Source of the DNA: a virus
Direction: 5' to 3' (one strand)
IMG/VR virus record: IMGVR_UViG_3300030107_003246
Span: 1-57,180 of that record
DNA: 57,180 bases
Shown here: positions 43,038 through 57,180 of the stretch, piece after piece
How the letters are laid out: the number at the start of each line of letters is the position of its first letter
Numbering within the stretch: the first letter of the stretch is position 1
Made by a program: the position numbers and the translations under genes
The notes under the pieces: generated by a model
The model's input: the letters and a program-made list of their open reading frames with translations, nothing else
What the model was told of the DNA's origin: nothing
The model's database searches: none

Positions 43038-44327
43038 ATGACTTGGGTTTTAGGTGTAAACATAGGGCATCAATCTGGCGCTACTTTAGTAAGAAGTGGT
43101 AAGGTATTTGTTTCTATAAATTTAGAAAGAATTACTAGAATTAAAAATGACAATGGCTATCCACCGCCAGAAGAAAATAATTGGGATTATTCATTAATAG
43201 AATTTCCTTGGAAAGCTATGGACTATTGTTTAGATTATGCTAACATACAGAAAACGGATTTAGATAGAATTGTTTGGAATGGTATTGGTTTAACACCAGA
43301 CCAACAAATAAGTGTAGATGGATTTTTAGTTCAGAAGTTGAAAAAAAATGGATACGATTTGCCAAATGATAGATTAAATTATTGTACACATCATTTAGCA
43401 CACGCATACTCAACTCATTACTCAAGTGGTTTTGATGAATCTATTATTTTAGTAGCTGACAATGCTGGTGAAATGAATTACAAACAAACAGTAGATGATT
43501 TTGTAGAAAATAAAATAGCACATATCCAAAAAACAAGACTTGGTGAGTGTGTTGAAGCTACTAGTATTTACGAAGTTAAGAAAGGTGTATTTAAAAGAAT
43601 ATACTCTCGCTACAAAGCAGCTTACTCATATTTTAATACAGTAGGAAAACACAAAGATGGGTCTGGTTTTAGCACTAGATATAGGTTAGGAAAGTCACTT
43701 GGAGAGTGGTATTATGATAATTGTATTCACATAGGTTTGACTGGAGATGATGCTGGAAAACTTATGGGATTAGCTCCTTTTGGAGATGAAGAAAAAGTTA
43801 GAGAAAAGTATAAAGAACCAATGGTATACATTGATAAAGATCCTAAAGCTGGTGAATACTTAATAAGAGCTCACGAATATCTTCCATATGAAGAGCAAGA
43901 AGAATTGGATGAAATGTATATAAATACACCAATACCATCTTATATGAGTGATACTATATATGAAAATGATTTTCAATCTAAAGCAGATCATGCTTGGTTT
44001 GTACAAAATCAATTTGAAAGAGTTGTTGAATTTTTAGCTAAAAAGTGTTCAATGATTTCAGATGTCAAAAACTTTTGTGCTGCAGGTGGCAGTTTCTTAA
44101 ATTCTGTGGCAAATCAAAAAATAATAGATTTGGATATTTTTGATAATCACTTTTTTGTTCCAGCAGCTGATGATGGTGGTATAAGTTTAGGATGTGCTTT
44201 TTATGGTTACTTTAACTTTCATAGTAAAAAAGGAATTTTCAACTTATCTAATAGAGAGGATAGTGCTTTTATGGGAAAAAAATATAATGAAAAAGAAATA
44301 TTAGGAGCTCTTAATGAATATAGCTAA
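43038..44327 (+). CDS. Truncated carbamoyltransferase paralogue (N-terminal domain only)
   Basis: This 429-aa protein is closely similar along its length to residues 738-1150 of the preceding fusion: GVNIGHQSGATLV, KAMDYCLDYA, RLNYCTHHLAHAYSTHYSSGF and AAGGSFLNSVANQKI. It ends at FMGKKYNEKEILGALNEYS, before the family's C-terminal domain with the GPRALG motif. It is therefore a tandem duplicate that lost the YrdC-like half that makes carbamoyl-adenylate. It could act in trans with a neighbour's C-domain, serve as a regulator, or be decaying. A 14-nt overlap with the next gene may mark where the deletion joined them. Confidence 0.8.
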   Translation: MTWVLGVNIGHQSGATLVRSGKVFVSINLERITRIKNDNGYPPPEENNWDYSLIEFPWKAMDYCLDYANIQKTDLDRIVWNGIGLTPDQQISVDGFLVQKLKKNGYDLPNDRLNYCTHHLAHAYSTHYSSGFDESIILVADNAGEMNYKQTVDDFVENKIAHIQKTRLGECVEATSIYEVKKGVFKRIYSRYKAAYSYFNTVGKHKDGSGFSTRYRLGKSLGEWYYDNCIHIGLTGDDAGKLMGLAPFGDEEKVREKYKEPMVYIDKDPKAGEYLIRAHEYLPYEEQEELDEMYINTPIPSYMSDTIYENDFQSKADHAWFVQNQFERVVEFLAKKCSMISDVKNFCAAGGSFLNSVANQKIIDLDIFDNHFFVPAADDGGISLGCAFYGYFNFHSKKGIFNLSNREDSAFMGKKYNEKEILGALNEYS

Positions 44328-46260
44328 AAAGCCACAAACCGATGTGGATATTCTTCATTATATTAATCAGACAAAAGAATTTTGGAAAGTAACAGATTTT
44401 CAAAAAGAGATATTAGATTTTGAGGGTTTCACACCACATATTCCTGATGACCTTAATTTTTACATAGGACATCCTGAAATGGCAGTAGATTACAGATCTG
44501 ATCGTGGTACTTCTTTTGGAGATATTATTCCATATACTAGATTGCCTGAGTTATTAAAAATATATTATAGAGGGTGTAAAGTATTTATACCAAAATGGTT
44601 CATTGATGTTTTTCAGCACAATCCATATATTGATGGAACACACGACTTTGATTATAAGTGGGGTTCTATGGGAACTTTTGGAACAACGATTCAGCGATGT
44701 ACTAATGTTTGGGGATTGAGAACAGAAGATTACACACCAAAATTATTTGCTTCACCGAATATTAAAAAAAGAAAAAACACTATATTGTTTACATTAAATA
44801 GTAAAACTGGTGGAAGATTTGGAGATAATGATTTATTAGAAGAAGTAGTTGAACATTTAGGAAAAAAATATCACTGTGTACAATTAGGTTTGTCAGATGA
44901 CTATTTAGTCAAATCAGCACATAAACACGTTTTAAATATTTCTAGAAATAAATTAATTGACTTTGTTGCAGAATTTCCTATATACATAGGCGCACAGAGT
45001 AGTATATATCATATAGCAAAGGGTTTGGGTTTAAAGACAATTGGGATATTGCCAGAAAAACAAAGACTAAAAGAAGCAGGTAGTGTACAAACTATATTTG
45101 GTGGATTTCATCCAGACTATGTACAATTACCTTTGCTTACAGTAACCAATACTATGGAAGTTGTACCTTGTGGAGAAGAACATTTTGAAAGAGCTAAATA
45201 TTTTCAACCAATGTTTCCCAATCAACCGCCAAATGGGGGCGCAGGTGAAAACTCTATAGCAGGATATAATGACACTATAGCACATTTAGGTTGGTTATAT
45301 CCCGATACACCACATTTAACTATGAGCCCTTTGGGAACTGAAAGATGCCCTACGCTATCTAAAGAAACTATTGATATGGCTTTAAATGATGAGATATATC
45401 CATTCAATGATGATAGATTGTGGGATTATTACAAACATAAAGAGTTGTGGACTGCACCAAATACTGATCCTCTAAATATTGCAAAAGGCTTTTCAACAGT
45501 GCTTAAAAAAGAAAAACCTAAAATAATATCATCTCATATACCTAGAACAGGTGGAAATTTATTTAGAAATGTTTTATACGATTTATATGGTGTTCGTGAT
45601 TGTTTAGAAAATGTAAAAGATAAAATATATTATGATGAAAAGTATTTTACACGTAAAGGTGATATGGTTATGTACGAAGATTATGGAGATAAGCCAGAAT
45701 ATAATTATTATGAAGTCAATCCCACAGTGGATGTTCCACAATACGAATGTATACACGGGCATTTTAGATTAGGTAAATATAAACAATTATTTAATTCTCA
45801 TAAATTAATTGTTTGGCTTAGAAATCCTATAGATAGATTAATATCACACTATTACTTTTTAAAAAATTCACCACTACATATCGATCCTATACAAAACAAA
45901 CTGATAGCAGAAGAATTAGACTTATATCAATTTTGTGAGTTAGAAACTTCTAAAAATATCTATAAAAAGTATTTTCAAAAATATTCTAAAAATATAGACT
46001 TCATAGGAATTACTGAAAGTTATAATGATAGTTTGAGAAAGTTTGAAAAAATGTTTGATGTTGAAGTAGGAGATACATATCCATATTTTGATATAGAATC
46101 AGGCGATTCAGATTTTAAAAACAATATACAAAATTCAAAGTGGGCTGTATATAAAAAAGAATATGATAAAATAGATAGAAACTTTATAAAAAAATTAAAT
46201 CAAGATGACATAGAAATATACAATCAATCAGTAAGAATAAATTCGGAATATAAATTATGA
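44314..46260 (+). CDS. GT9-like glycosyltransferase fused to sulfotransferase
   Basis: This 648-aa protein has AGGAG 9 nt before ATG. Residues 45-310 resemble heptosyltransferase/ADP-heptose GT9 folds (GTSFGDIIPYTRLPELLK, GAQSSIYHIAKGLGLKTIGI). Residues 400-648 form a sulfotransferase: ISSHIPRTGGNLFRNV (405-420) as the PAPS 5'-phosphosulfate loop and VWLRNPIDRLISHYYF as the 3'-phosphate motif. The fusion could transfer a sugar and then sulfate it, or act as two enzymes on one glycan. A sulfated phage glycan would be unusual. It overlaps the following gene by ATGA. Donor sugar and acceptor are unknown. Confidence 0.75.
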   Translation: MNIAKKPQTDVDILHYINQTKEFWKVTDFQKEILDFEGFTPHIPDDLNFYIGHPEMAVDYRSDRGTSFGDIIPYTRLPELLKIYYRGCKVFIPKWFIDVFQHNPYIDGTHDFDYKWGSMGTFGTTIQRCTNVWGLRTEDYTPKLFASPNIKKRKNTILFTLNSKTGGRFGDNDLLEEVVEHLGKKYHCVQLGLSDDYLVKSAHKHVLNISRNKLIDFVAEFPIYIGAQSSIYHIAKGLGLKTIGILPEKQRLKEAGSVQTIFGGFHPDYVQLPLLTVTNTMEVVPCGEEHFERAKYFQPMFPNQPPNGGAGENSIAGYNDTIAHLGWLYPDTPHLTMSPLGTERCPTLSKETIDMALNDEIYPFNDDRLWDYYKHKELWTAPNTDPLNIAKGFSTVLKKEKPKIISSHIPRTGGNLFRNVLYDLYGVRDCLENVKDKIYYDEKYFTRKGDMVMYEDYGDKPEYNYYEVNPTVDVPQYECIHGHFRLGKYKQLFNSHKLIVWLRNPIDRLISHYYFLKNSPLHIDPIQNKLIAEELDLYQFCELETSKNIYKKYFQKYSKNIDFIGITESYNDSLRKFEKMFDVEVGDTYPYFDIESGDSDFKNNIQNSKWAVYKKEYDKIDRNFIKKLNQDDIEIYNQSVRINSEYKL

Positions 46261-47870
46261 GTAAGGTATTTGGTATAATAGGTCACGCTCACGATTCTAC
46301 AGTTGCTTATATAGAAGATGGTGAAATAAAAGTGGTTATAGAAGAGGAGAGAATTCGTAAGATTAAATCTTGGGCACTTAGTGGGGTTTATCCGTGGTTT
46401 GCTATGGATACAATAGAAAATGATATGGGATATAAATTAGAGGATTCGGACTATATTTGTATAGCAGAAGTAGCAGAGCCAGATTTAGATAGATATAAAT
46501 CAGAAGAGATGAGAAGAAAGGTGGTTACATATCCACATCATTTACTTCACGCAGTTGGCGCATATTATACATCAGGTTTTAAAGAAAAGACTTTAGTTAT
46601 TACTCACGATGGAAGTGGTTTTAAAACTGTTGGTAGGGTTTATTTAGGTTATGATGATAAATTACATTTAGTACATAAACAACCAAAAGAAAAATCAGCG
46701 TCTATTGGACAATATTTTGGTCGTTGTACAACTCAGTTTGCACCAAAAGGAGCTGTGTGGCATTCTCTTAAAGATGAGGGAAAGCTTATGGGTATGGCTG
46801 GTCACGGAAAATATAATGAAGAGATGTATAATAAATTAAAACAATTATTACACTACACCAATGATTTGAATTTTGGTCCTTGTGGAAATTGGAATAGAGT
46901 AGAAACATTTTTTGAATCACTTCGTGAAGAGGAATCTGATTGGAGTGATAATTTCGAACTAAGAGCCGAGTGGGCTTTCAATGTACAAAAGTTATTAGAA
47001 GATGTTTTTTTAGAATATTTAGAAGATTTACATAAATTTTATCCTGAATATAAAAGGGTGGCAGTTGCTGGTGGCATTTTTGCTAATGTAAAATTAAATC
47101 AAAAAATAAATGAATTGGATTGGGTTGATGAAGTTTATGTGTATCCTGCTATGAGTGATTCTGGACTAGCATTAGCAGCTGCTATAATGAAATCAGTAGA
47201 ATTAGGTGAGTGGGAAAATAAAAGATTTGAAAATGTATTTTTAGGAAACGATTATACAAAAGACGAAATAAAAAAAGAAGAAAAAGAATGGAATTTCAAT
47301 AAAGAAAAATTTGACTCTAAAAAAGTTGCTAAACTATTAAATGATGGAAATATTATTGGTTGCTTTCAAGGAAAAATGGAATATGGACCTAGAGCATTGG
47401 GTTCAAGAAGTATTTTAGTTAGAGCTACCGATAAAGAGATGCACGAAACTTTAAATAATAGATTAGAAAGACACGAAATAATGCCATTTGCTCCAATTAT
47501 TTTAGGAGAGAAAGTAGATGATGTTTGTAAAAATACAAAATCAAAAATGACTGCAGAGTTTATGACAATGTGTTATACAGTAAAAGATGAGTGGGTTGAT
47601 AAAATACCAGCAGTAGTTCATAGAGTGGATAATACACTAAGACCTCAATTAGTTTTTAAAGAAAGAAATAAATTCTTTCATAGTATTTTAAATGAATATT
47701 ACAAAATATCTAAAATACCAGTTCTCTTAAACACATCTTTTAATGGTCACGGACAACCGATTATATATGATTTGAATCAGCCATTTGAACATTTAGAAAA
47801 AGGAACTGTTGATTATTTAGTTTTGGAAGATAATTTATATTGGAGTAAAAATGAGAAGAAGGCCGATTAG
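46257..47870 (+). CDS. O-carbamoyltransferase, NodU/CmcH family
   Basis: This 537-aa protein is complete, with both domains. The N-terminal Kae1-like part has HHLLHAVGAYYTSGF (metal His) and GMAGHGKYNEE. The C-terminal YrdC-like domain has FQGKMEYGPRALGSRSIL and IPVLLNTSFNGHGQPI. The family moves a carbamoyl group from carbamoyl phosphate, through carbamoyl-adenylate, to hydroxyls of sugars. It differs clearly from the fused copy at 39039, so it was probably acquired or diverged separately and may carbamoylate another position. It is coupled at both ends. Confidence 0.88.
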   Translation: MSKVFGIIGHAHDSTVAYIEDGEIKVVIEEERIRKIKSWALSGVYPWFAMDTIENDMGYKLEDSDYICIAEVAEPDLDRYKSEEMRRKVVTYPHHLLHAVGAYYTSGFKEKTLVITHDGSGFKTVGRVYLGYDDKLHLVHKQPKEKSASIGQYFGRCTTQFAPKGAVWHSLKDEGKLMGMAGHGKYNEEMYNKLKQLLHYTNDLNFGPCGNWNRVETFFESLREEESDWSDNFELRAEWAFNVQKLLEDVFLEYLEDLHKFYPEYKRVAVAGGIFANVKLNQKINELDWVDEVYVYPAMSDSGLALAAAIMKSVELGEWENKRFENVFLGNDYTKDEIKKEEKEWNFNKEKFDSKKVAKLLNDGNIIGCFQGKMEYGPRALGSRSILVRATDKEMHETLNNRLERHEIMPFAPIILGEKVDDVCKNTKSKMTAEFMTMCYTVKDEWVDKIPAVVHRVDNTLRPQLVFKERNKFFHSILNEYYKISKIPVLLNTSFNGHGQPIIYDLNQPFEHLEKGTVDYLVLEDNLYWSKNEKKAD

Positions 47871-50295
47871 AGCTCCTTGGGAGGGCGAATTTATGAAACA
47901 GAGACAAGACCATATTAAAATAATTAAAGATCCTATTATTAGATGTATACACACTAATGATGAATATTTTACCTTATATGTAGAACAATATATAAAGAAT
48001 CAAAAAGGACAATTGTGTTTTTGGAATTCATATAGTCTAAATGGTATGAATGCATGGCATGGAAATTGGGTTCAATGGCACGCTGATTGGGTTTTTAAAG
48101 TGTATGGGTTAAATAAAGGTAAATATACTTTTTTAAAAAGATATGATTATGATTTAAAAGGTAAAAATGTACAAATAGTTTTAGATACAAAAGATTGGGA
48201 AGAAGCTGGTGAGTGGTTAGGTTATTGTAAGAAATTTCAAAAAGAAACTGGTTGTAAATTATTCATCGCATCAGATGAGTTTAATAGAGGACATTTTTCC
48301 AATCAAAATACAGACCAGATTATAAAATTTACAGAAACTTATAATAAAGGTGTAGAGACAATTGATGGCATAGGTGTACCACCTGATGAATATAGCAATT
48401 CACCGATACACGATTTATATGCTAGGTATGATATAGGTAGGTTTCCTTTGACTACTAGAAAGAAGTATGGATTTGAAAGAGACCAATGGAGAGTTGATGA
48501 TAAAGATAAAGAAAGTTCACATAACTCTATTACTTTTAAACAACAGAATAAATTACCTTTAGGTTTAATTGAAATGATGAATTTTACATTCGATGGTTGG
48601 AAAAATCCTGTGACTATTTCACAATCACAATTAGATGAATATTATGGTATAGTTGATAAAGATGTAGAAATAGAGGAAGCAACATCAGCTGACATAGTAA
48701 AACAAATACTTGGATTCAAAACAAAATATTGGGATGGTGTAGATTTAAAAAAAGAAGGACATAGAAAAATAAAAGGAGAATTTACTCAACACGAATTCTT
48801 TTCAGGTGGATTTCATAGTTGGGGTAAAGGAGAAAATGCCACACGAGTTGCTATACAAATATTGAGTTACAATAAACCTTACTATTTAAAAAGAACTTTA
48901 GATTCTTTAATGGAAGTTATAGAACACAATGATAAAATTTGTGTATTGGAACAATCTGATAAACCTGATTTGAAAGAACAAGCAATTGCTGTTTGTAAAG
49001 AATATGATAATATAACTATAATTTCTATTGATGAAAATTTAGGACAAAGAGGTGCAACAAATAAAGTTTGGGAAAGTGGATTTTTTGATAATTGCCAATA
49101 CATTATGTTTTCAGACCACGATAATGAATATCACGAACCATTAACTATACTTTGTGATAAATTAGATGAAGAAAATAATGTGACGATAGCAACATTTTAT
49201 AATTCACCCGAACACGACATTACACACAAAGATGGTAATTGGTTATACAAACAGACTGCTAGAGCTGGTAATATGATGATGAGGCGTGATGAATTAATTC
49301 AAATGCTACCAATTGATGTAGACTTATATTCAGAGACAAAAACAGATGAGGATTACTGTGCTTGGTTTGCAGGTTTAGATTGGTGGGTACAGTGGTGGCA
49401 CGATGAAAGTGGTGGTAAACAAAATAGAGATAATTTTGTAGCTTGTTATATGGGTGGTTGTACACATTTTGGAGTAGAATCAACTTGGCAAGGTAAATAT
49501 GATGATGAAATTCCACGACACGAATCACTTTTGATGAAAGATAAAACTATGGAACAGATAGTAAAAAAATATCCACCGAGAAGAGAGTATAATCACGGAA
49601 AAGAGTGGTGGTATGAAAAAGAAAAGCTTGATTTAAAAGATGTTACATTGGTAATAGTGGATTGTATAGATTATGAAAGAGCTTTAAGAGCTGTCAATAT
49701 TTCTACTATATATGCCAAATTTGGAGATGTTAAATTTTTTACATCTATGGATAAAGATAATGATGATATAGTAAAAATACCACATTGTCAATCTAATTTT
49801 GATGTTATACATTTTATGTGGAAGAAAATGAATTCATATATCAAAACTAAGTATATTTTACATATAGAATTTGATGGTTTTATTTTAAATCCAAAAGCTT
49901 GGAAAGATGAGTTTTTAAATTATGATTATATAGGTGCACCGTGGTGGTATGAAGAAAATAATGTTGGAAATGCTGGATTTAGTTTAATAAGTAAAAAAAT
50001 GTTAGACTTTATACAAAAAGATGATGTTATGGACTTATATCCATCAGATGATGACGCTATATGTAGAATTAATAGAAAATATTTAGAGGAAAACGGAATA
50101 AAATTTGCACCTGAAGAGTTAGCAGCTGATTTCTCTTTTGAGGCTAATGAAAAGCGTGGTGATAAGTGGGATGGACAGTTTGGATTTCACAGTCCATCAA
50201 TGGAAAATGAAAGACACCCTAATAAATTTAGAGGTGGTATAACAAATATTGATAATTGGCCTGATAAAGATAAGATTAGATGGCCGAATGGTTAA
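47851..50295 (+). CDS. GT2-family glycosyltransferase fused to DUF5672 domain, with BAHT-like N-terminal module
   Basis: This 814-aa protein overlaps the previous gene by 20 nt. ATG 47893, after GGAGGGC, is an equally good start. Residues 30-160 resemble the N-terminal module of the 39039 heptosyltransferase (YDLKGKNVQIVL, GEWLGYCKKFQKETGCKLF). Residues 331-560 are a GT-A fold GT2-like transferase (IQILSYNKPYYLKRTL, SDHDNEY at 421-427 as the metal/donor site). Residues 595-790 match DUF5672 (DYIGAPWWYEENNVGNAGFSLIS, 689-708), associated with glycosyltransferases. The likely role is adding sugars to the same glycan. It ends the cassette; a promoter-like element follows. Confidence 0.8.
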   Translation: MRRRPIRAPWEGEFMKQRQDHIKIIKDPIIRCIHTNDEYFTLYVEQYIKNQKGQLCFWNSYSLNGMNAWHGNWVQWHADWVFKVYGLNKGKYTFLKRYDYDLKGKNVQIVLDTKDWEEAGEWLGYCKKFQKETGCKLFIASDEFNRGHFSNQNTDQIIKFTETYNKGVETIDGIGVPPDEYSNSPIHDLYARYDIGRFPLTTRKKYGFERDQWRVDDKDKESSHNSITFKQQNKLPLGLIEMMNFTFDGWKNPVTISQSQLDEYYGIVDKDVEIEEATSADIVKQILGFKTKYWDGVDLKKEGHRKIKGEFTQHEFFSGGFHSWGKGENATRVAIQILSYNKPYYLKRTLDSLMEVIEHNDKICVLEQSDKPDLKEQAIAVCKEYDNITIISIDENLGQRGATNKVWESGFFDNCQYIMFSDHDNEYHEPLTILCDKLDEENNVTIATFYNSPEHDITHKDGNWLYKQTARAGNMMMRRDELIQMLPIDVDLYSETKTDEDYCAWFAGLDWWVQWWHDESGGKQNRDNFVACYMGGCTHFGVESTWQGKYDDEIPRHESLLMKDKTMEQIVKKYPPRREYNHGKEWWYEKEKLDLKDVTLVIVDCIDYERALRAVNISTIYAKFGDVKFFTSMDKDNDDIVKIPHCQSNFDVIHFMWKKMNSYIKTKYILHIEFDGFILNPKAWKDEFLNYDYIGAPWWYEENNVGNAGFSLISKKMLDFIQKDDVMDLYPSDDDAICRINRKYLEENGIKFAPEELAADFSFEANEKRGDKWDGQFGFHSPSMENERHPNKFRGGITNIDNWPDKDKIRWPNG

Positions 50296-50756: not shown

Positions 50757-53264
50757 ATGGCAGAGAGAATAGTCAGTCCTGGTGTATTTACTCGTGAGAA
50801 AGATTTATCTTTTCTACCGCAAGGGATTTCTGAGATTGGAGCTGCTATTGTCGGACCTACTGCAAAAGGTCCTTCATTTGTACCTACAATAGTTAGAAGT
50901 TTTGAGCAATTTGAACAGGTATTTGGATCTTATAATAGTGATTACTATACACCTTATACTGTAAAAGAATATTTACGTTCCGCAGGAACTGTAACAATAG
51001 TAAGAGTTGGATATATCGGCGGTTATTCCGTAGGTGGATTCAATCTACTTATTAGTGGTTCGTCAGCGAACTATGGTGAGAATGGAAAATTAGTTGTAGC
51101 TTCATTTTTACCAGCAATCAATAATAGTAATGGAACGGGTGCTCTAAGTGGTTCTATCAAAGGTGCTACAAGCGCTAGTAATTTTACATTAGAATTAGCT
51201 GGTGCTAACGCAACTGCCAGTTTAACAAATCTTTCAATAATAACTAAAGGTTCTGCTACTGGAGAGAACGATGCTGTATCTGGTGATTACATTTTAAGGC
51301 AAGTTCCTTCAGATCCTAAAGCACAATCAATTGGTAGTACAGAAGCTCCAGGATATATGTATAAGTTTTTTGAAAGCTCTGTAAGTGCTTCATTTGCCGC
51401 AGGTATGATAGCTTCTGAGGGTATAACTGCAGGTAGATTGTTTACTGAAGATGCAACCTTTAATTTTGCTGGTGGAACAGAAACAGTTGATACATCTAAT
51501 GGTAATTATATTACTACAATTACAGGTAATTCAGACGCTTCTTCAGCTAGAACACCTTTTATTAATTCACAATTAATCGGTGGTAGTGGTACAAATCTGT
51601 TTAGAATTTATACAAGAGCAGATGGAAATGATACTAATCAGTTTTATGTTGTGATTAGAGATGTTAAGAGACCGCAAGGTTCTAATTCAAGTCCAAGTTA
51701 TGCACAATTTGGTTTGGCTGTATATCGAACAGGTGATGCCGCACCAATAGAAAGCTATACTGGACTTAATATGGATCCTGATTCATCTAATTACATAGTA
51801 AAAGTAATTGGTGATATGTTTCAAACTGTAAATAACAATGGTGAGATTACCACATATGGTGATTATCCTAATATGTCTCAATATATCAGAGTTGGTGATT
51901 ACAAAGAGGATGTATTTAGAAGTAATACTAACTTACAACCTATGGGTCACGCTGCTGTATTAGATCCTATTGTTTCTACAAACGTTGTACCAACAGCTTC
52001 ATTTGGATTAACACAAACCAGTGATGGTGATAATAGTAATACTGGAACATACAAAGAGTATCTTCCTTATGGTATTAAATTACATCCTGATTATCCTAAT
52101 AGTGAAATAACTACAAACTATGCTTATTTAGCACCAATTTCAAGTGGTGAAACGGCTGGTAGTAATGTTGATTTCGCTTTGGAGAATATGTTTGGATATG
52201 GTGATACTACATCATTTGAATACTCAAATAAAACCAATTTTGCTATAAACACACAAACTTTGACAATATCACAATCAGTTGAACAGTTAAAGTTTTCTGT
52301 TCCAATGCAACACGGTTTTGATGGTATTAATCCAGCTGCTTCAAAAGCTACAGGAACATCAATCTCATCTACAAATAGTATGGGATTTGATATGTCATCA
52401 ACAACTGCTAGTGGTTCAATTGCTTTCAAAAGAGCGATAAATGCCATATCTAATCCTGATGATTACGATATTAATATGCTCGTAACTCCAGGTGTGATAC
52501 ATAAACACCATTCAGTAGTTACTAATCACGCAATTGATAAAGTTGAAGAAAGAGCTGATGCTTTTTATGTATTAGATAGTGCTGACATAGACGATAATGT
52601 TGCTACAGCCGTTGATAATGTTGTATCTTTAGATACTAACTATGTAGCTACTTATTATCCGTGGGTTAAGATTGAAGATCCCGCTGGTCAAGGTCAAGTT
52701 TGGGTGCCACCATCAGTAGTAATACCTGGTGTGATTGCTTTCACAGATAGTGTAGCTCACGAATGGTTTGCTCCTGCTGGATTGAATAGAGGTGGATTAT
52801 CTAATGTTAGGATGACTAAGAAGAAACTTACTCATACTGATAGAGATACACTTTATGAGGGTAGAGTTAATCCGATTGCTTCATTTCCTGGTCAAGGAGT
52901 TGTGGTATTTGGACAAAAGACACTACAAGCTAAACCATCTGCACTTGATAGAATCAATGTTCGTAGACTATTAATTAGATTGAAGAAATTTATTGCTTCT
53001 TCAAGCAGATTCTTAGTATTTGAACAAAACGATTCATCTACAAGAGCTAGATTCTTAAATATAGTAAATCCGTTCTTAGAATCAGTACAATCCAATAGTG
53101 GATTAAGTGCTTTCAAAGTTGTGATGGATGATACAAACAATACACCTGATGTCGTTGATAGAAATCAGTTGATTGGACAGATATTCATACAACCTACGAG
53201 AACGGCAGAGTTTATTGTTTTGGACTTCTCAGTATTGCCAACAGGCGCTGCATTTCCAGAGTAA
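50757..53264 (+). CDS. Tail sheath protein (T4 gp18-like)
   Basis: This 835-aa protein forms the contractile sheath. The N-terminus RIVSPGVFTREKDLSFLPQGI and GAAIVGPTAKGPSFVPT, and the C-terminal domain (residues 680-835) with YEGRVNPIASFPGQGVVVFGQKTL, NVRRLLIRLKKFI, FEQNDSSTRARFLN and QPTRTAEFIVLDFS, are diagnostic of contractile sheaths. It is longer than T4 gp18 (659 aa). The extra length lies in the central, surface-exposed domains, which are Gly/Ser/Thr-rich. AAGGAG precedes ATG and a strong terminator follows, so it is a highly expressed single gene. It shows that the phage has a contractile (myovirus) tail. Confidence 0.96.
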   Translation: MAERIVSPGVFTREKDLSFLPQGISEIGAAIVGPTAKGPSFVPTIVRSFEQFEQVFGSYNSDYYTPYTVKEYLRSAGTVTIVRVGYIGGYSVGGFNLLISGSSANYGENGKLVVASFLPAINNSNGTGALSGSIKGATSASNFTLELAGANATASLTNLSIITKGSATGENDAVSGDYILRQVPSDPKAQSIGSTEAPGYMYKFFESSVSASFAAGMIASEGITAGRLFTEDATFNFAGGTETVDTSNGNYITTITGNSDASSARTPFINSQLIGGSGTNLFRIYTRADGNDTNQFYVVIRDVKRPQGSNSSPSYAQFGLAVYRTGDAAPIESYTGLNMDPDSSNYIVKVIGDMFQTVNNNGEITTYGDYPNMSQYIRVGDYKEDVFRSNTNLQPMGHAAVLDPIVSTNVVPTASFGLTQTSDGDNSNTGTYKEYLPYGIKLHPDYPNSEITTNYAYLAPISSGETAGSNVDFALENMFGYGDTTSFEYSNKTNFAINTQTLTISQSVEQLKFSVPMQHGFDGINPAASKATGTSISSTNSMGFDMSSTTASGSIAFKRAINAISNPDDYDINMLVTPGVIHKHHSVVTNHAIDKVEERADAFYVLDSADIDDNVATAVDNVVSLDTNYVATYYPWVKIEDPAGQGQVWVPPSVVIPGVIAFTDSVAHEWFAPAGLNRGGLSNVRMTKKKLTHTDRDTLYEGRVNPIASFPGQGVVVFGQKTLQAKPSALDRINVRRLLIRLKKFIASSSRFLVFEQNDSSTRARFLNIVNPFLESVQSNSGLSAFKVVMDDTNNTPDVVDRNQLIGQIFIQPTRTAEFIVLDFSVLPTGAAFPE

Positions 53265-54210: not shown

Positions 54211-54699
54211 ATGGCAGACTTAATAGATCCTTCAGAAATTATGTTCACTCCGTTTGAACCGAAAACGAAAAATCGGTTCATAATGTACATAGAAGGTGTT
54301 CCAGCATATTTGATTAAAACAGCAAACCGCCCTACTATAACTTTTGAAGAAATAGAATTAGATCACATAAACGTTAAACGATATGTGAAAGGAAAGGGAG
54401 CTTGGGAAACTTTAGAGGTTACTCTATACGATCCGATTGTACCATCAGGTGCACAAGCAGTTATGGAATGGGTTCGTTTACATAAAGAGTCTGTTACTGG
54501 TAGAGATGGATATTCCGATTTTTATAAAAAAGATATTACATTTAATGTATTAGGACCTGTTGGAGACAAAGTGGAAGAGTGGACACTTAAAGGTGCTATG
54601 ATACAATCAGCCAATTTTGGTGATTTAGATTGGTCAGTTAGTGAACCAGCAGAAATTACATTAACACTAAGATACGATTACGCTATCTTACAATTCTAA
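54211..54699 (+). CDS. Tail tube protein (T4 gp19-like)
   Basis: This 162-aa protein has AGGAG before ATG. Typical tail-tube features are an N-terminal PFEPKTKNRFIMYIEGVPAYLIK segment, the mid-part VTLYDPIVPSGAQAVMEWVRLH and the closing ETLTLRYDYAIL-like strand (ITLTLRYDYAILQF). It assembles hexameric rings around the tape measure. The length equals T4 gp19 (163 aa) almost exactly. It is followed by a small membrane protein gene after 12 nt, then the chaperone and tape measure genes, the usual tail order. Confidence 0.95.
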   Translation: MADLIDPSEIMFTPFEPKTKNRFIMYIEGVPAYLIKTANRPTITFEEIELDHINVKRYVKGKGAWETLEVTLYDPIVPSGAQAVMEWVRLHKESVTGRDGYSDFYKKDITFNVLGPVGDKVEEWTLKGAMIQSANFGDLDWSVSEPAEITLTLRYDYAILQF

Positions 54700-54711: not shown

Positions 54712-54921
54712 ATGGGTTTTATTCAAGAAATGCTCTCTAGCGATGCAAAAATATCTTCAAAACGAACAGTCGGTTTTGCCGCTTTCATTATGTTGATTGC
54801 AAGTTGGGGGGCTGATACTTTTTCATCTTTTGAAGTCAAAGATAAAATACTAGAATGTTTTATGTACATTTCAGTAGTTGGATTAGGAGTTACAGCCGCC
54901 GAAAAATTTGGTAAAAAATAG
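54712..54921 (+). CDS. Small two-helix membrane protein, holin-like
   Basis: This 69-aa protein has GAGGAG before ATG. Two hydrophobic segments, residues 19-37 (TVGFAAFIMLIASWGADTF) and 49-64 (ECFMYISVVGLGVTAA), are joined by a short charged loop, with a basic end (EKFGKK). Size and two-helix topology are typical of many phage holins or small membrane proteins found near tail genes. No endolysin gene is near, so lysis is only possible, not shown. Confidence 0.55.
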   Translation: MGFIQEMLSSDAKISSKRTVGFAAFIMLIASWGADTFSSFEVKDKILECFMYISVVGLGVTAAEKFGKK

Positions 54922-54952: not shown

Positions 54953-55699
54953 ATGGCAGAATATAAATTCCCTACAGAAGTAGTGGATCTGCCGTCAAAA
55001 GGATTATTATATCCAAAAGATAGCCCGCTATCTTCTGGTCAAATAGAAATCAAATATATGACGGCTAAAGAAGAGGATATTCTTACATCCGCTAATCTTA
55101 TTAAAAAGGGTATAGTTGTTGAGAAGTTAATAGAGGCTTTGATAGTAGATAAGTCAATTAAATCAAATGAATTGTTAATTGGAGATAAAAATGCTGTTCT
55201 CATCGCATCTCGTATTCTTGCGTATGGTAAAGAGTATGAAGTAGAAATAGCTGGTCAAAGAGTAGAGGTTGATTTAACACAATTAAGCGATAATAAATTA
55301 GATGAGAGTTTAGTCGTAGATGGTAAAAATGAATTTGAATTTGAATTGCCAGCAACCAAAAGAAAGCTAACATTTAAATTACTTACATCAGGTGATGAAA
55401 AAGAGATAGAAAAAGAAATTGAGGGGTATAGAAAAGTTGGAGATGGCATTGGTTATGATTTAACTACACGACTGAAAAGTCAAATAATTTCAGTTGATGG
55501 TGACGATAAAAAAACTACAATAAATAATTTTGTAGATAATGAATTTTTATCGAGAGATTCAATAGCTTTTAGAGAATATTTAAATAAAATATCGCCAGAT
55601 GTGGATATGACATCTACATACATAGATTCAGATGGAATTGAGAAGGAGTTTACGGTCCCTATGACCGTTACGTTTCTTTGGCCTGCCGCCGGAGTATAA
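54953..55699 (+). CDS. Tail assembly chaperone / baseplate-hub protein (T4 gp26-like)
   Basis: This 248-aa protein has AGGAG before ATG. It begins FPTEVVDLPSKGLLYP and continues with an alpha/beta domain (IEIKYMTAKEEDILTSANL, EFELPATKRKLTFKLLTSGDE) of the T4 baseplate-hub (gp26) type, ending in MTVTFLWPAAGV. It lies directly upstream of the tape measure region, the universal place for tail-assembly chaperones. The reading frame 3' of its stop is open in the +1 frame and encodes a conserved-looking extension, so a longer, frameshifted form is likely (see 55665-55898). Confidence 0.75.
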   Translation: MAEYKFPTEVVDLPSKGLLYPKDSPLSSGQIEIKYMTAKEEDILTSANLIKKGIVVEKLIEALIVDKSIKSNELLIGDKNAVLIASRILAYGKEYEVEIAGQRVEVDLTQLSDNKLDESLVVDGKNEFEFELPATKRKLTFKLLTSGDEKEIEKEIEGYRKVGDGIGYDLTTRLKSQIISVDGDDKKTTINNFVDNEFLSRDSIAFREYLNKISPDVDMTSTYIDSDGIEKEFTVPMTVTFLWPAAGV

Positions 55700-55898
55700 A
55701 CCACAACTACACGAAGAAATATTTCAAATAAGCTTTAACTCACAGAGTATGTTCTCATTTTCTGAGGTATACAACATGCCTATATATCTTAGAAAGTTTT
55801 ACTTTAAAAGGTTACAAAAACATTACAAAGAACAAGCTGAAGAGATAAAAAAAGCTAACCAAAAAAATAAAAGTAAGCACCCAAATTTCAGAAAATAA
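55665..55898 (+). CDS. Downstream part of a probable frameshifted tail-assembly chaperone
   Basis: A +1 (equivalently -2) frame opens after a stop at 55662, overlaps the end of the 54953 gene for 35 nt and runs to TAA at 55896. It encodes GLPPEYKPQLHEEIFQISF, then FSEVYNMPIYLRKFYFKRLQ and a basic tail. No start with a ribosome binding site lies at its beginning; the only internal ATG (55749) has no good one. The MPIYLRKFY motif resembles sequences in T4-like tail chaperones. It is best explained as a ribosomal frameshift product, as in the lambda G/GT and Mu chaperones. The exact shift site is unknown. Confidence 0.6.
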   Translation, partial: PLRFFGLPPEYKPQLHEEIFQISFNSQSMFSFSEVYNMPIYLRKFYFKRLQKHYKEQAEEIKKANQKNKSKHPNFRK

Positions 55899-55956: not shown

Positions 55957-56148
55957 ATGGGTTTATTAGATAAACTTGTAGATAAAATTATCGACAGTGC
56001 TAAAAAGAAAAAACAAAGCGCTTCTGTAAAGAGGGCTATTAAAAATAATCCTGCATTAAAAAAAGCTATGGACAATCATCAAAAAGCAGTTGATGTATTA
56101 AAAGTCAAAGTAGCTCAAATGGCAAAAGAAAAAGGTATAAAACTCTAA
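55957..56148 (+). CDS. Small basic helical protein before tape measure
   Basis: This 63-aa protein starts at ATG 55957, with GGAG about 9 nt before it. A TTG at 55918 is in frame but lies in the promoter-like element and lacks a ribosome binding site. The sequence is a Lys/Ala-rich amphipathic helix (LLDKLVDKIIDSAKKKK, LKKAMDNHQKAVDVLKVKV). Position between chaperone and tape measure, which it abuts, suggests a tail-assembly helper. No family was recognised. Confidence 0.55.
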   Translation: MGLLDKLVDKIIDSAKKKKQSASVKRAIKNNPALKKAMDNHQKAVDVLKVKVAQMAKEKGIKL

Positions 56149-56149
56149 A

Positions 56150-57180
56150 ATGGCTACCAAAAAAGATGTAGATAATGCAAAAGCGATAGCAGCTGCTAAT
56201 AAGGCTGCAGCACAAACAGCCAAAGAACAAGCGGCTCACGAAAAAGACATCGCTAATTATAAAGATAAAACTCTAAGAGCTTCTCTTTCCGCTCGTGGTA
56301 TTTCCAAAGAAGAATATCTAAATGCACAAAAAAGAGCTAGAGATGAAGCACTAGTAACCAAACAAAAACAAGACCAAGCTAAGATTGGAAAGACTACAGC
56401 AAGTTTAACTCAAAAAATAAATAAGTTATTAGATTCTGGTGCTGGTGCTATATTAAAATCATATAATTTAACTGAACAATTAGAACAATCGCAACAAGCT
56501 GCAGTTCTATCTACAGGAGATCTTCAAAAAGGTTACAATTTAGTTAATGACGCACAACTAGCAGCTGTTGATGCAATAAAAGCTGGAACATTTGATGCTA
56601 ATGGTTTTATGGAGGATTTGGAAGAACAATTTGAAGGTATGAGTGATGAAGCAAAAGAAGCTTTAGATACTATGAGAGATAGCTTAAAAAGTTTTTCTAA
56701 AACAGCAGAAGAGGCTGGAAAGGGTTTAGAAAATGCTCTAAACATAGACGCAAAAACATTAGATGGTTTAGAGGGTGCAAGGGATAAATTAAAAGAATAT
56801 TCTGCTATAGCATCAAGCCCAAAATTAATGGGCGCTTTTGCTATTGGACTAGCAGTAAAATTTATGACAGATTTTGTTGGGAAAGCCTTAGAGGTTAAAC
56901 AAAGTTTAGGTGTATCTGCAGTAGAATCTGCAAGAATAGCTACCAACCTTAAAGCTGCTAGTGTTTCAGCTAAATTATTTGGTGGTAGTGCTGAACAAGC
57001 AGAAGCTGCTGTATTCAGTTTAGAAGAAAATTTTGGTTCACTTGATAATATATCATTAGGTGTATCTACTAAGGTTGGTGCTTTAACAGGACAATTTGGA
57101 TTGGCTGGTGATAGCGCTGGTAAACTTTTAAAATCTTTAGAGGGTGTAAGTGGTGCTTCTTTAGAAACAAATATTGAATT
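56150..57180 (+). CDS. Tail tape measure protein, 3' end cut off by window
   Basis: The frame is open from ATG 56150 through the end of the window (343 codons), so the gene is partial. The N-terminal 100 residues are an Ala/Lys/Gln-rich coiled coil, then helical stretches (EEQFEGMSDEAKEALDTM, KSFSKTAEEAGKGLENAL), a hydrophobic helix (PKLMGAFAIGLAVKFMTDFV, about 224-243) and further helical sequence resembling the start of phage tape measure repeats (LGVSAVESARIATNLKAASV). It follows tube and chaperone genes directly. It determines tail length and is exported with the DNA. Its start has a weak ribosome binding site and is probably coupled to the preceding gene. Confidence 0.8.
   Translation, partial: MATKKDVDNAKAIAAANKAAAQTAKEQAAHEKDIANYKDKTLRASLSARGISKEEYLNAQKRARDEALVTKQKQDQAKIGKTTASLTQKINKLLDSGAGAILKSYNLTEQLEQSQQAAVLSTGDLQKGYNLVNDAQLAAVDAIKAGTFDANGFMEDLEEQFEGMSDEAKEALDTMRDSLKSFSKTAEEAGKGLENALNIDAKTLDGLEGARDKLKEYSAIASSPKLMGAFAIGLAVKFMTDFVGKALEVKQSLGVSAVESARIATNLKAASVSAKLFGGSAEQAEAAVFSLEENFGSLDNISLGVSTKVGALTGQFGLAGDSAGKLLKSLEGVSGASLETNIE

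Follow-up and report, generated by a model that had tools for sequence, protein, structure and literature searches.

According to a 2016 review, the genes of tail-assembly chaperones shift by -1, -2 or +1 in different phages, T4 being the exception, and in lambda G/GT as well as in other such systems the gene precedes that of the tape measure protein and yields a minority product, which is extended C-terminally from another reading frame (PMC5009743). To T4-like phages poly-T -1 signals have been assigned (Vladimirov, Gautam and Davidson 2022, Virology 566:9-15, as cited in PMC12846349). A forward shift is described for influenza A PA-X, where ribosomes enter the +1 frame at UCC_UUU_CGU (PMC3498833), and a designed hairpin beside the E site was reported from 70S extracts to stimulate +1 shifting, to attenuate -1 shifting and to mimic an SD duplex, being active only without RF2, i.e. 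with a hungry A site (PMC6321510). In the present study a stretch of viral DNA of 57,180 nucleotides, called the window throughout, was analysed. It derives from a marine phage related to T4, and its tail-assembly chaperone gene (Table 1) very probably contains a programmed +1 frameshift at UUU_Y, which would yield a long form of the protein before the tape measure gene. Its position and the predicted minority product resemble those of lambda, but lambda shifts -1, whereas the site in the window would shift +1 at UUU_Y with a hairpin upstream; the short form is homologous to that of the gp26/gp51 chaperones of T4-like phages, yet their sites are cited as -1 and the one described here is +1. 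Tail chaperone frameshifts, those of T4-like phages included, are already known; neither a +1 site in this clade nor a natural upstream hairpin at a +1 site was found in the open-licence PMC literature.

Table 1 Features of the chaperone locus and its surroundings in the window
Feature	Position	Strand	Remarks
Large gene at the tail-sheath place of relatives	50757-53264		Upstream of the chaperone; position in relatives only
Tube gene, T4 gp19-type	54211-54699		Upstream of the chaperone; phrog_4542, E 7.5e-30
Tail-assembly chaperone, short form (TAC-N), gp26/PF12322-like, 248 aa	54953-55699	+	ATG 54953, TAA 55697-55699
SD-like AAGGAG	55643-55648	+	24 nt 5' of the slip codon; codon bias and anti-SD pairing vs synonymous shuffles
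Upstream RNA hairpin ACGGTC-CCTAT-GACCGT	55652-55668	+	3' end 4 nt before the slip codon; shuffle fold z, pair exchanges, covariation
Putative shift site TTT_CTT TGG CCT	55673-55684	+	TTT in 133/133; next base T (68) or C (65)
gp51-like extension (TAC-C) in the +1 frame, entered by the predicted shift	55677-55898	+	Predicted fusion of 314 aa
Small lysine-rich ORF, 63 aa, between chaperone and long gene	55957-56148	+	Weak match to phrog_31042, E 0.0025 (PHROG without known function)
Long gene truncated at the window end, probably for the tape measure protein	56150-57178	+	Flavobacterium phage immuto and Listeria phage LIS04 have a gene annotated as tail tape measure at this place

An earlier reading of the window, made from the sequence only, had stated that the +1 frame stays open behind the chaperone, and this is borne out: the frame is open from 55665 to a TAA at 55896-55898 (77 codons) and overlaps frame 0 by 35 nt. 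The extension of 70 residues given there proved slightly short, as 73 residues follow the slip codon. Its placement directly before the tape measure gene holds in so far as an ORF of at least 300 aa begins within 500 nt downstream in 87 of the 90 loci with enough sequence; in the window itself the small lysine-rich ORF intervenes. Pfam and PHROG profile searches with the long gene gave no family match that would provide a name. Between the tube gene and the chaperone a further ORF of 69 aa with hydrophobic stretches (54712-54921) is situated, which has no matches in Pfam or PHROG, and three large genes adjoining the tail genes (44314-50295) may, by their look, encode sugar- or group-transfer enzymes.

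The 248-aa protein belongs with T4 gp26. The window protein itself matches the baseplate hub family phrog_150 (E 5.4e-7) and scores 20.8 bits against PF12322, which is under the cut-off of 24.5; 34 of the 53 aligned members match PF12322 at E<=1e-3, the best one at 1.9e-16. An AlphaFold2 model of the 314-aa fusion has a mean pLDDT of 86.2, with a linker (residues 250-267) below 50. A sequence search of the PDB gave no relative (best E 0.059) and Foldseek against the PDB returned 221 matches, none of them at E <= 0.001; in a search of viral structures, T4-like baseplate hub assembly proteins and the hub subunit of Bacillus phage SP-15 were among 50 models at E <= 0.001. Re-alignment of 991 PDB chains ranked YqbN (Z 5.2) first and 2ob9, the tail assembly chaperone of HK97 (Z 5.0), second, both values being weak by the tool's own standard and both matches being confined to residues 1-93, which is suggestive of a tail-chaperone fold in the model, but not proof of it. 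As for the extension, both its place in the gene order and weak profile matches suggest that it belongs to the gp51 family known from T4-like phages. A match to phrog_634, 'baseplate hub assembly catalyst', was obtained with one of the 58 extensions aligned (E 0.0032). In hhalign comparisons, whose values rest on rows other than Melnitz2 and Rhizobium in the group of -1 extensions (stubs of 3 and 1 aa), the extension of this clade reached probabilities of 65.5% with the short gp51 of the Kyanoviridae type, 82.3% with extensions of the Thornevirus type and 0.9% with the C-terminus of T4/RB49 gp51, the first and the last of these being linked to each other at 88.4%. By analogy, a gp26-type gene made in both forms would have the role of a tail-assembly chaperone.

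Relatives were collected as the best 80 of 599 loci found by the chaperone and 80 of 177 found by the extension (77 of them new), together with records of named phages, resulting in 163 sequences (the window and L001-L162). Both parts are present in 160 of these, which collapse to 133 distinct 240-nt stretches, and in all 160 the extension lies in the +1 frame with an overlap of at least 29 nt, although the loci are related by descent, so that such counts are not independent events and overstate the independent evidence. Conservation of the overlap, proposed earlier as a check, is hereby confirmed, and the programmed +1 shift in the chaperone gene stands as the best-supported reading. The three exceptions are L004 and L005, which have no BLAST-detectable extension, and L042, which runs off its contig. 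Among the loci picked by the chaperone alone and not by the extension, the +1 relation is found in 79 of 80, the 80th being truncated. Within the close set, differences at codon positions 1/2/3 number 13113/5098/27606: the extension, assumed from its look to be conserved, evolves as a protein and, judged by this pattern, is under protein-level selection. A sequencing error joining the two frames, which had been named as a possible refutation, can be ruled out by independent metagenomes and isolate genomes, since it cannot account for 133 distinct loci. Farther away, RM378 (TTT TTT TGG), SP-15 (TTT_CAC), L278 and GXN1 (TTT_CGT) and LIS04 (TTT TTT AGT) are all open in +1, Vibrio phage D510 has an open -1 frame but no canonical heptamer, and LR756511 (L005) and XacN1 have hub-type genes, in which no clear shift arrangement is readable. 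Public annotation truncates the extension (gp51) at an internal start in immuto (L001 3339-3449) and in Syn9 (L193 1749-1892), and because of this the part supplied by the frameshift is lost there.

With the last Phe codon of frame 0 ahead of W/F/Y-P as the point of alignment, the 133 distinct loci read TTT TTT TGG CCT (64), TTT CTT TGG CCT (62) or near variants thereof (7). The slip codon, 55673-55675 in the window, is TTT in every one of them and is always followed by T (68) or C (65), which matches the need of a P-site tRNA-Phe moving from UUU to UUY; re-pairing in the +1 frame is possible at UUU_Y in 133/133. TTC makes up 26% of the Phe codons elsewhere in these genes and would be tolerable for the proteins of both frames, yet it never occurs at the slip codon (0/133). 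In the long plus-strand ORFs of the window T or C comes next after 188 of 607 TTT codons, and TTTYTTTGG occurs once on this strand. The base preceding TTT-TTT is T in none of 67 loci, the five loci with T there all being TTT-CTT, and before the site AAC (9/9) and AGC (5/5) are used although AAT and AGT are the usual codons; the -1 heptamer U_UUU_UUU thus seems to be avoided, and the X_XXY_YYZ pattern of a -1 heptamer is not found at the site across the 133 loci. The stop context GTA-TAA-A, one of two candidate sites in the sequence-only reading, has to be dropped, as the frame-0 stop is variable in kind (TAA 64, TAG 38, TGA 31) and lies 4 to 7 codons past the slip codon. The A-site codon, CUU in the window and UUU in half of the loci, is neither a stop nor rare (TTT 33.2, CTT 8.9 per 1000 codons), so that +1 shifting here would have to do without its usual trigger, a hungry codon.

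The other of those candidates, CTT-T, would place a prfB-like +1 slip on the following codon (CUU_U or UUU_U, the A site holding UGG), which we consider unlikely: 130 of 133 loci have CTT or TTT as codon 2, with T as the next base throughout, but the other three have CTA or TTA there, whose tRNA would be unable to re-pair at UAU, whereas a slip on codon 1 at UUU_C or UUU_U still works in these loci. With the later slip, moreover, neither the absence of TTC at codon 1 nor the invariable pyrimidine (T or C) behind it finds an explanation, and TTT_C at 55673, one codon earlier, is the most likely site. Rather improbable, too, is a -2 shift as in Mu, by which the tRNA of codon 2 would move back two bases onto TTY and one residue would be added. 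Re-pairing from UUU to UUU is possible in the TTT-TTT half (67/133), yet the 65 C-type loci, being as common, would need tRNA-Leu to move from CUU to UUC with a first-position mismatch, and an upstream duplex may, to follow PMC6321510, act as a roadblock against backward movement. The earlier claim that a +1 or -2 shift is needed instead of -1 therefore stands as to -1 and favours +1, while its -2 option fits the C-type half worse.

Translation of the extension as an independent small protein, initiated for example at ATG 55749 or at a non-canonical start in the overlap, is very improbable in view of the start codons. This ATG does exist, a start is found solely between slip and stop in 10 of 133 loci, others having one upstream, and the annotation of Microcystis phage Mel-JY01 gives a separate ORF that overlaps. 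However, in 71 of the 133 loci the stretch that begins at the upstream stop and reaches 45 nt beyond the frame-0 stop has no ATG, GTG or TTG, and in 106 it has no ATG, so that the lack of a usable start claimed before applies to these 71. Position 55749 is the earliest ATG of the extension frame and lies well within the extension, downstream of the FFGL...IF part; a protein started there, as considered in the sequence-only reading, would lack the extension's best-conserved portion, and the annotated piece in immuto comprises just 36 aa. Transcriptional slippage along a T run would find runs of seven T in the TTT-TTT type, but in the 65 of 133 loci whose fourth base is C, the window among them, T runs do not exceed four, which makes this explanation scarcely conceivable.

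Two conserved elements upstream of the slip codon do not figure in the sequence-only reading. At position -30 Lys is encoded by AAG in 45 of 47 cases and Glu by GAG in 31 of 31, compared with 25% and 24% elsewhere in the gene, and at -27 Glu is GAG in 63 of 74, as against about 25%. Anti-SD pairing within -42..-12 amounts to -9.2 kcal/mol vs -5.1 kcal/mol in synonymous shuffles, the native sequence pairing better than its shuffles in 66 of 71 representatives; no such gap was seen in four stretches elsewhere in the gene. Internal initiation from the SD-like element was considered and rejected, as the codon at -12 is ATG in just 19 of 71 representatives and hence not a conserved start. The arms of the hairpin pair 55652-55657 with 55663-55668 in the window. 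Folding of the stretch -30..0 gives a mean z of -1.53 relative to synonymous shuffles (below -1 in 45 of 71), whereas ten other stretches back to -270 show no hairpin signal (z between -0.51 and +0.06). Arms are exchanged in pairs among relatives (for instance ACGGTC/GACCGT, TACCGTC/GACGGTA, GGTGAC/GTCACC), and covariation in one register is 0.305 vs 0.239 in shuffled data (0/500 shuffles), being best at slide 0; 59.9% of the cells pair in a single fixed register, because registers are shifted among relatives. The hairpin signal is weaker in the GGAGG-type half (z -1.14 vs -1.88), and a strong SD-like element was not seen in the distant +1 phages RM378 and GXN1. Judged from the synonymous sites, both elements are selected beyond the amino acids, and they would act as stimulators of the shift. 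Structure downstream is weak, with a mean z of -0.41 (+6..+66) and -1.04 (+10..+90) vs dinucleotide shuffles in 71 loci; the stretch is coding in the new frame, and in the window itself a downstream stimulatory structure was not found.

Taken together, the conserved frame relation, the slip codon, the nucleotide-level selection upstream and the protein-level selection on the extension, all read from aligned sequences, are consistent with the following mechanism. The majority of ribosomes would terminate at the frame-0 stop and release TAC-N. A minority would change frame at UUU 55673-55675, where tRNA-Phe, sitting in the P site, would re-pair one base forward on UUC, by which base 55676 is skipped, and reading would resume with UUU GGC CUG on to 55898, giving the long form TAC-N+C. 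Ribosomes are probably pushed forward, and kept from slipping backward, by the SD-like AAGGAG together with the hairpin, which would refold just behind them. As with lambda gpG/gpGT, tube assembly on the tape measure protein would be set up by the proportion in which the two forms are made. For the slip at UUU_C the predicted tryptic junction peptide in the window is EFTVPMTVTFFGLPPEYK, while ...TFLGLPPEYK is predicted for a slip at CUU_U and ...TFLFGLPPEYK for a -2 shift.

With the +1 shift of prfB (RF2) the proposed mechanism has in common a forward slip on a pyrimidine-rich codon aided by an upstream SD-type duplex. In prfB, a slow UGA occupies the A site and the SD is 3 nt away, whereas the window site has no slow A-site codon and its SD-like element lies 24 nt off; nor is the hungry A site of the designed hairpin construct the case here. 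The likeness to PA-X consists in the C after UUU at the shift, and the Streptococcus phage GXN1 (L004) and a Thornevirus-like contig (L278) have the same UUU_CGU core; PA-X differs by the eukaryotic ribosome and by CGU in the A site, and we know of no upstream hairpin or SD element there.

Homologous genes are arranged differently in T4 and RB49, which possess two PF12322 genes each, the other nine of the 11 phage records searched having one. In T4 gp51, PF12322 covers residues 1-201 and a tail follows, T4 gp26 likewise being PF12322, and Vladimirov, Gautam and Davidson are said to have described in 2022 that T4 uses two genes in place of a shift. In T4 gp26 and gp51 (L170 3803-5229) are encoded divergently on opposite strands, as is the case in RB49. 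That gp51 of cyanophages is without the first ~200 residues has been noted before (PMC3037559). In cyanophages and KVP40 gp26 ends with T_TTT_TTC and the -1 frame opens into the short gp51; U_UUU_UUC is present in 65 of 65 distinct metagenomic loci, taken from the best 80 of 570, and Aeromonas phage P19 has the same -1 arrangement. Immediately before the site, all 69 of the -1 relatives counted have T, the count being limited to loci with the heptamer. The gp26 and short gp51 of Kyanoviridae (P-SSM2, P-SSM4, Syn9, S-PM2) and KVP40 resemble the window clade in gene order and in the Phe-Phe poly-U pivot ending gp26, but they use the -1 instead of the +1 frame, have a nearer SD-like element (GAGGG, ~10 nt upstream of the site) and lack the upstream hairpin signal (fold z +0.25).

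In a tree of 28 proteins all 15 +1 rows are found on one side of a 100/100 branch, with eight -1 and four T4/RB49 rows on the opposite one, RM378, D510 and the Rhizobium row forming long branches; owing to this split, one switch of direction suffices. We would tentatively suggest, though with somewhat more doubt than conviction, that direction switched once around a fixed Phe-Phe poly-U pivot and is set upstream, where an SD-like element at ~10 nt would lead to -1 in the cyanophages and one at 24 nt, together with a hairpin refolding against the E site, to +1 in this clade.

The locus adds a clear +1 frameshift site with its putative signals to a lineage of phages that is widespread and in which the long chaperone is at present missing from annotations or cut short in them. 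Homologous genes that seem to shift -1 in one branch and +1 in the other offer a natural experiment on the direction of slippage on bacterial ribosomes, and predictions on this direction are testable by synonymous mutations. An upstream-hairpin stimulator is, to our knowledge, known only from designed constructs; if the suggested switch is true, this clade would provide a natural and conserved case of it, working without a slow A-site codon.
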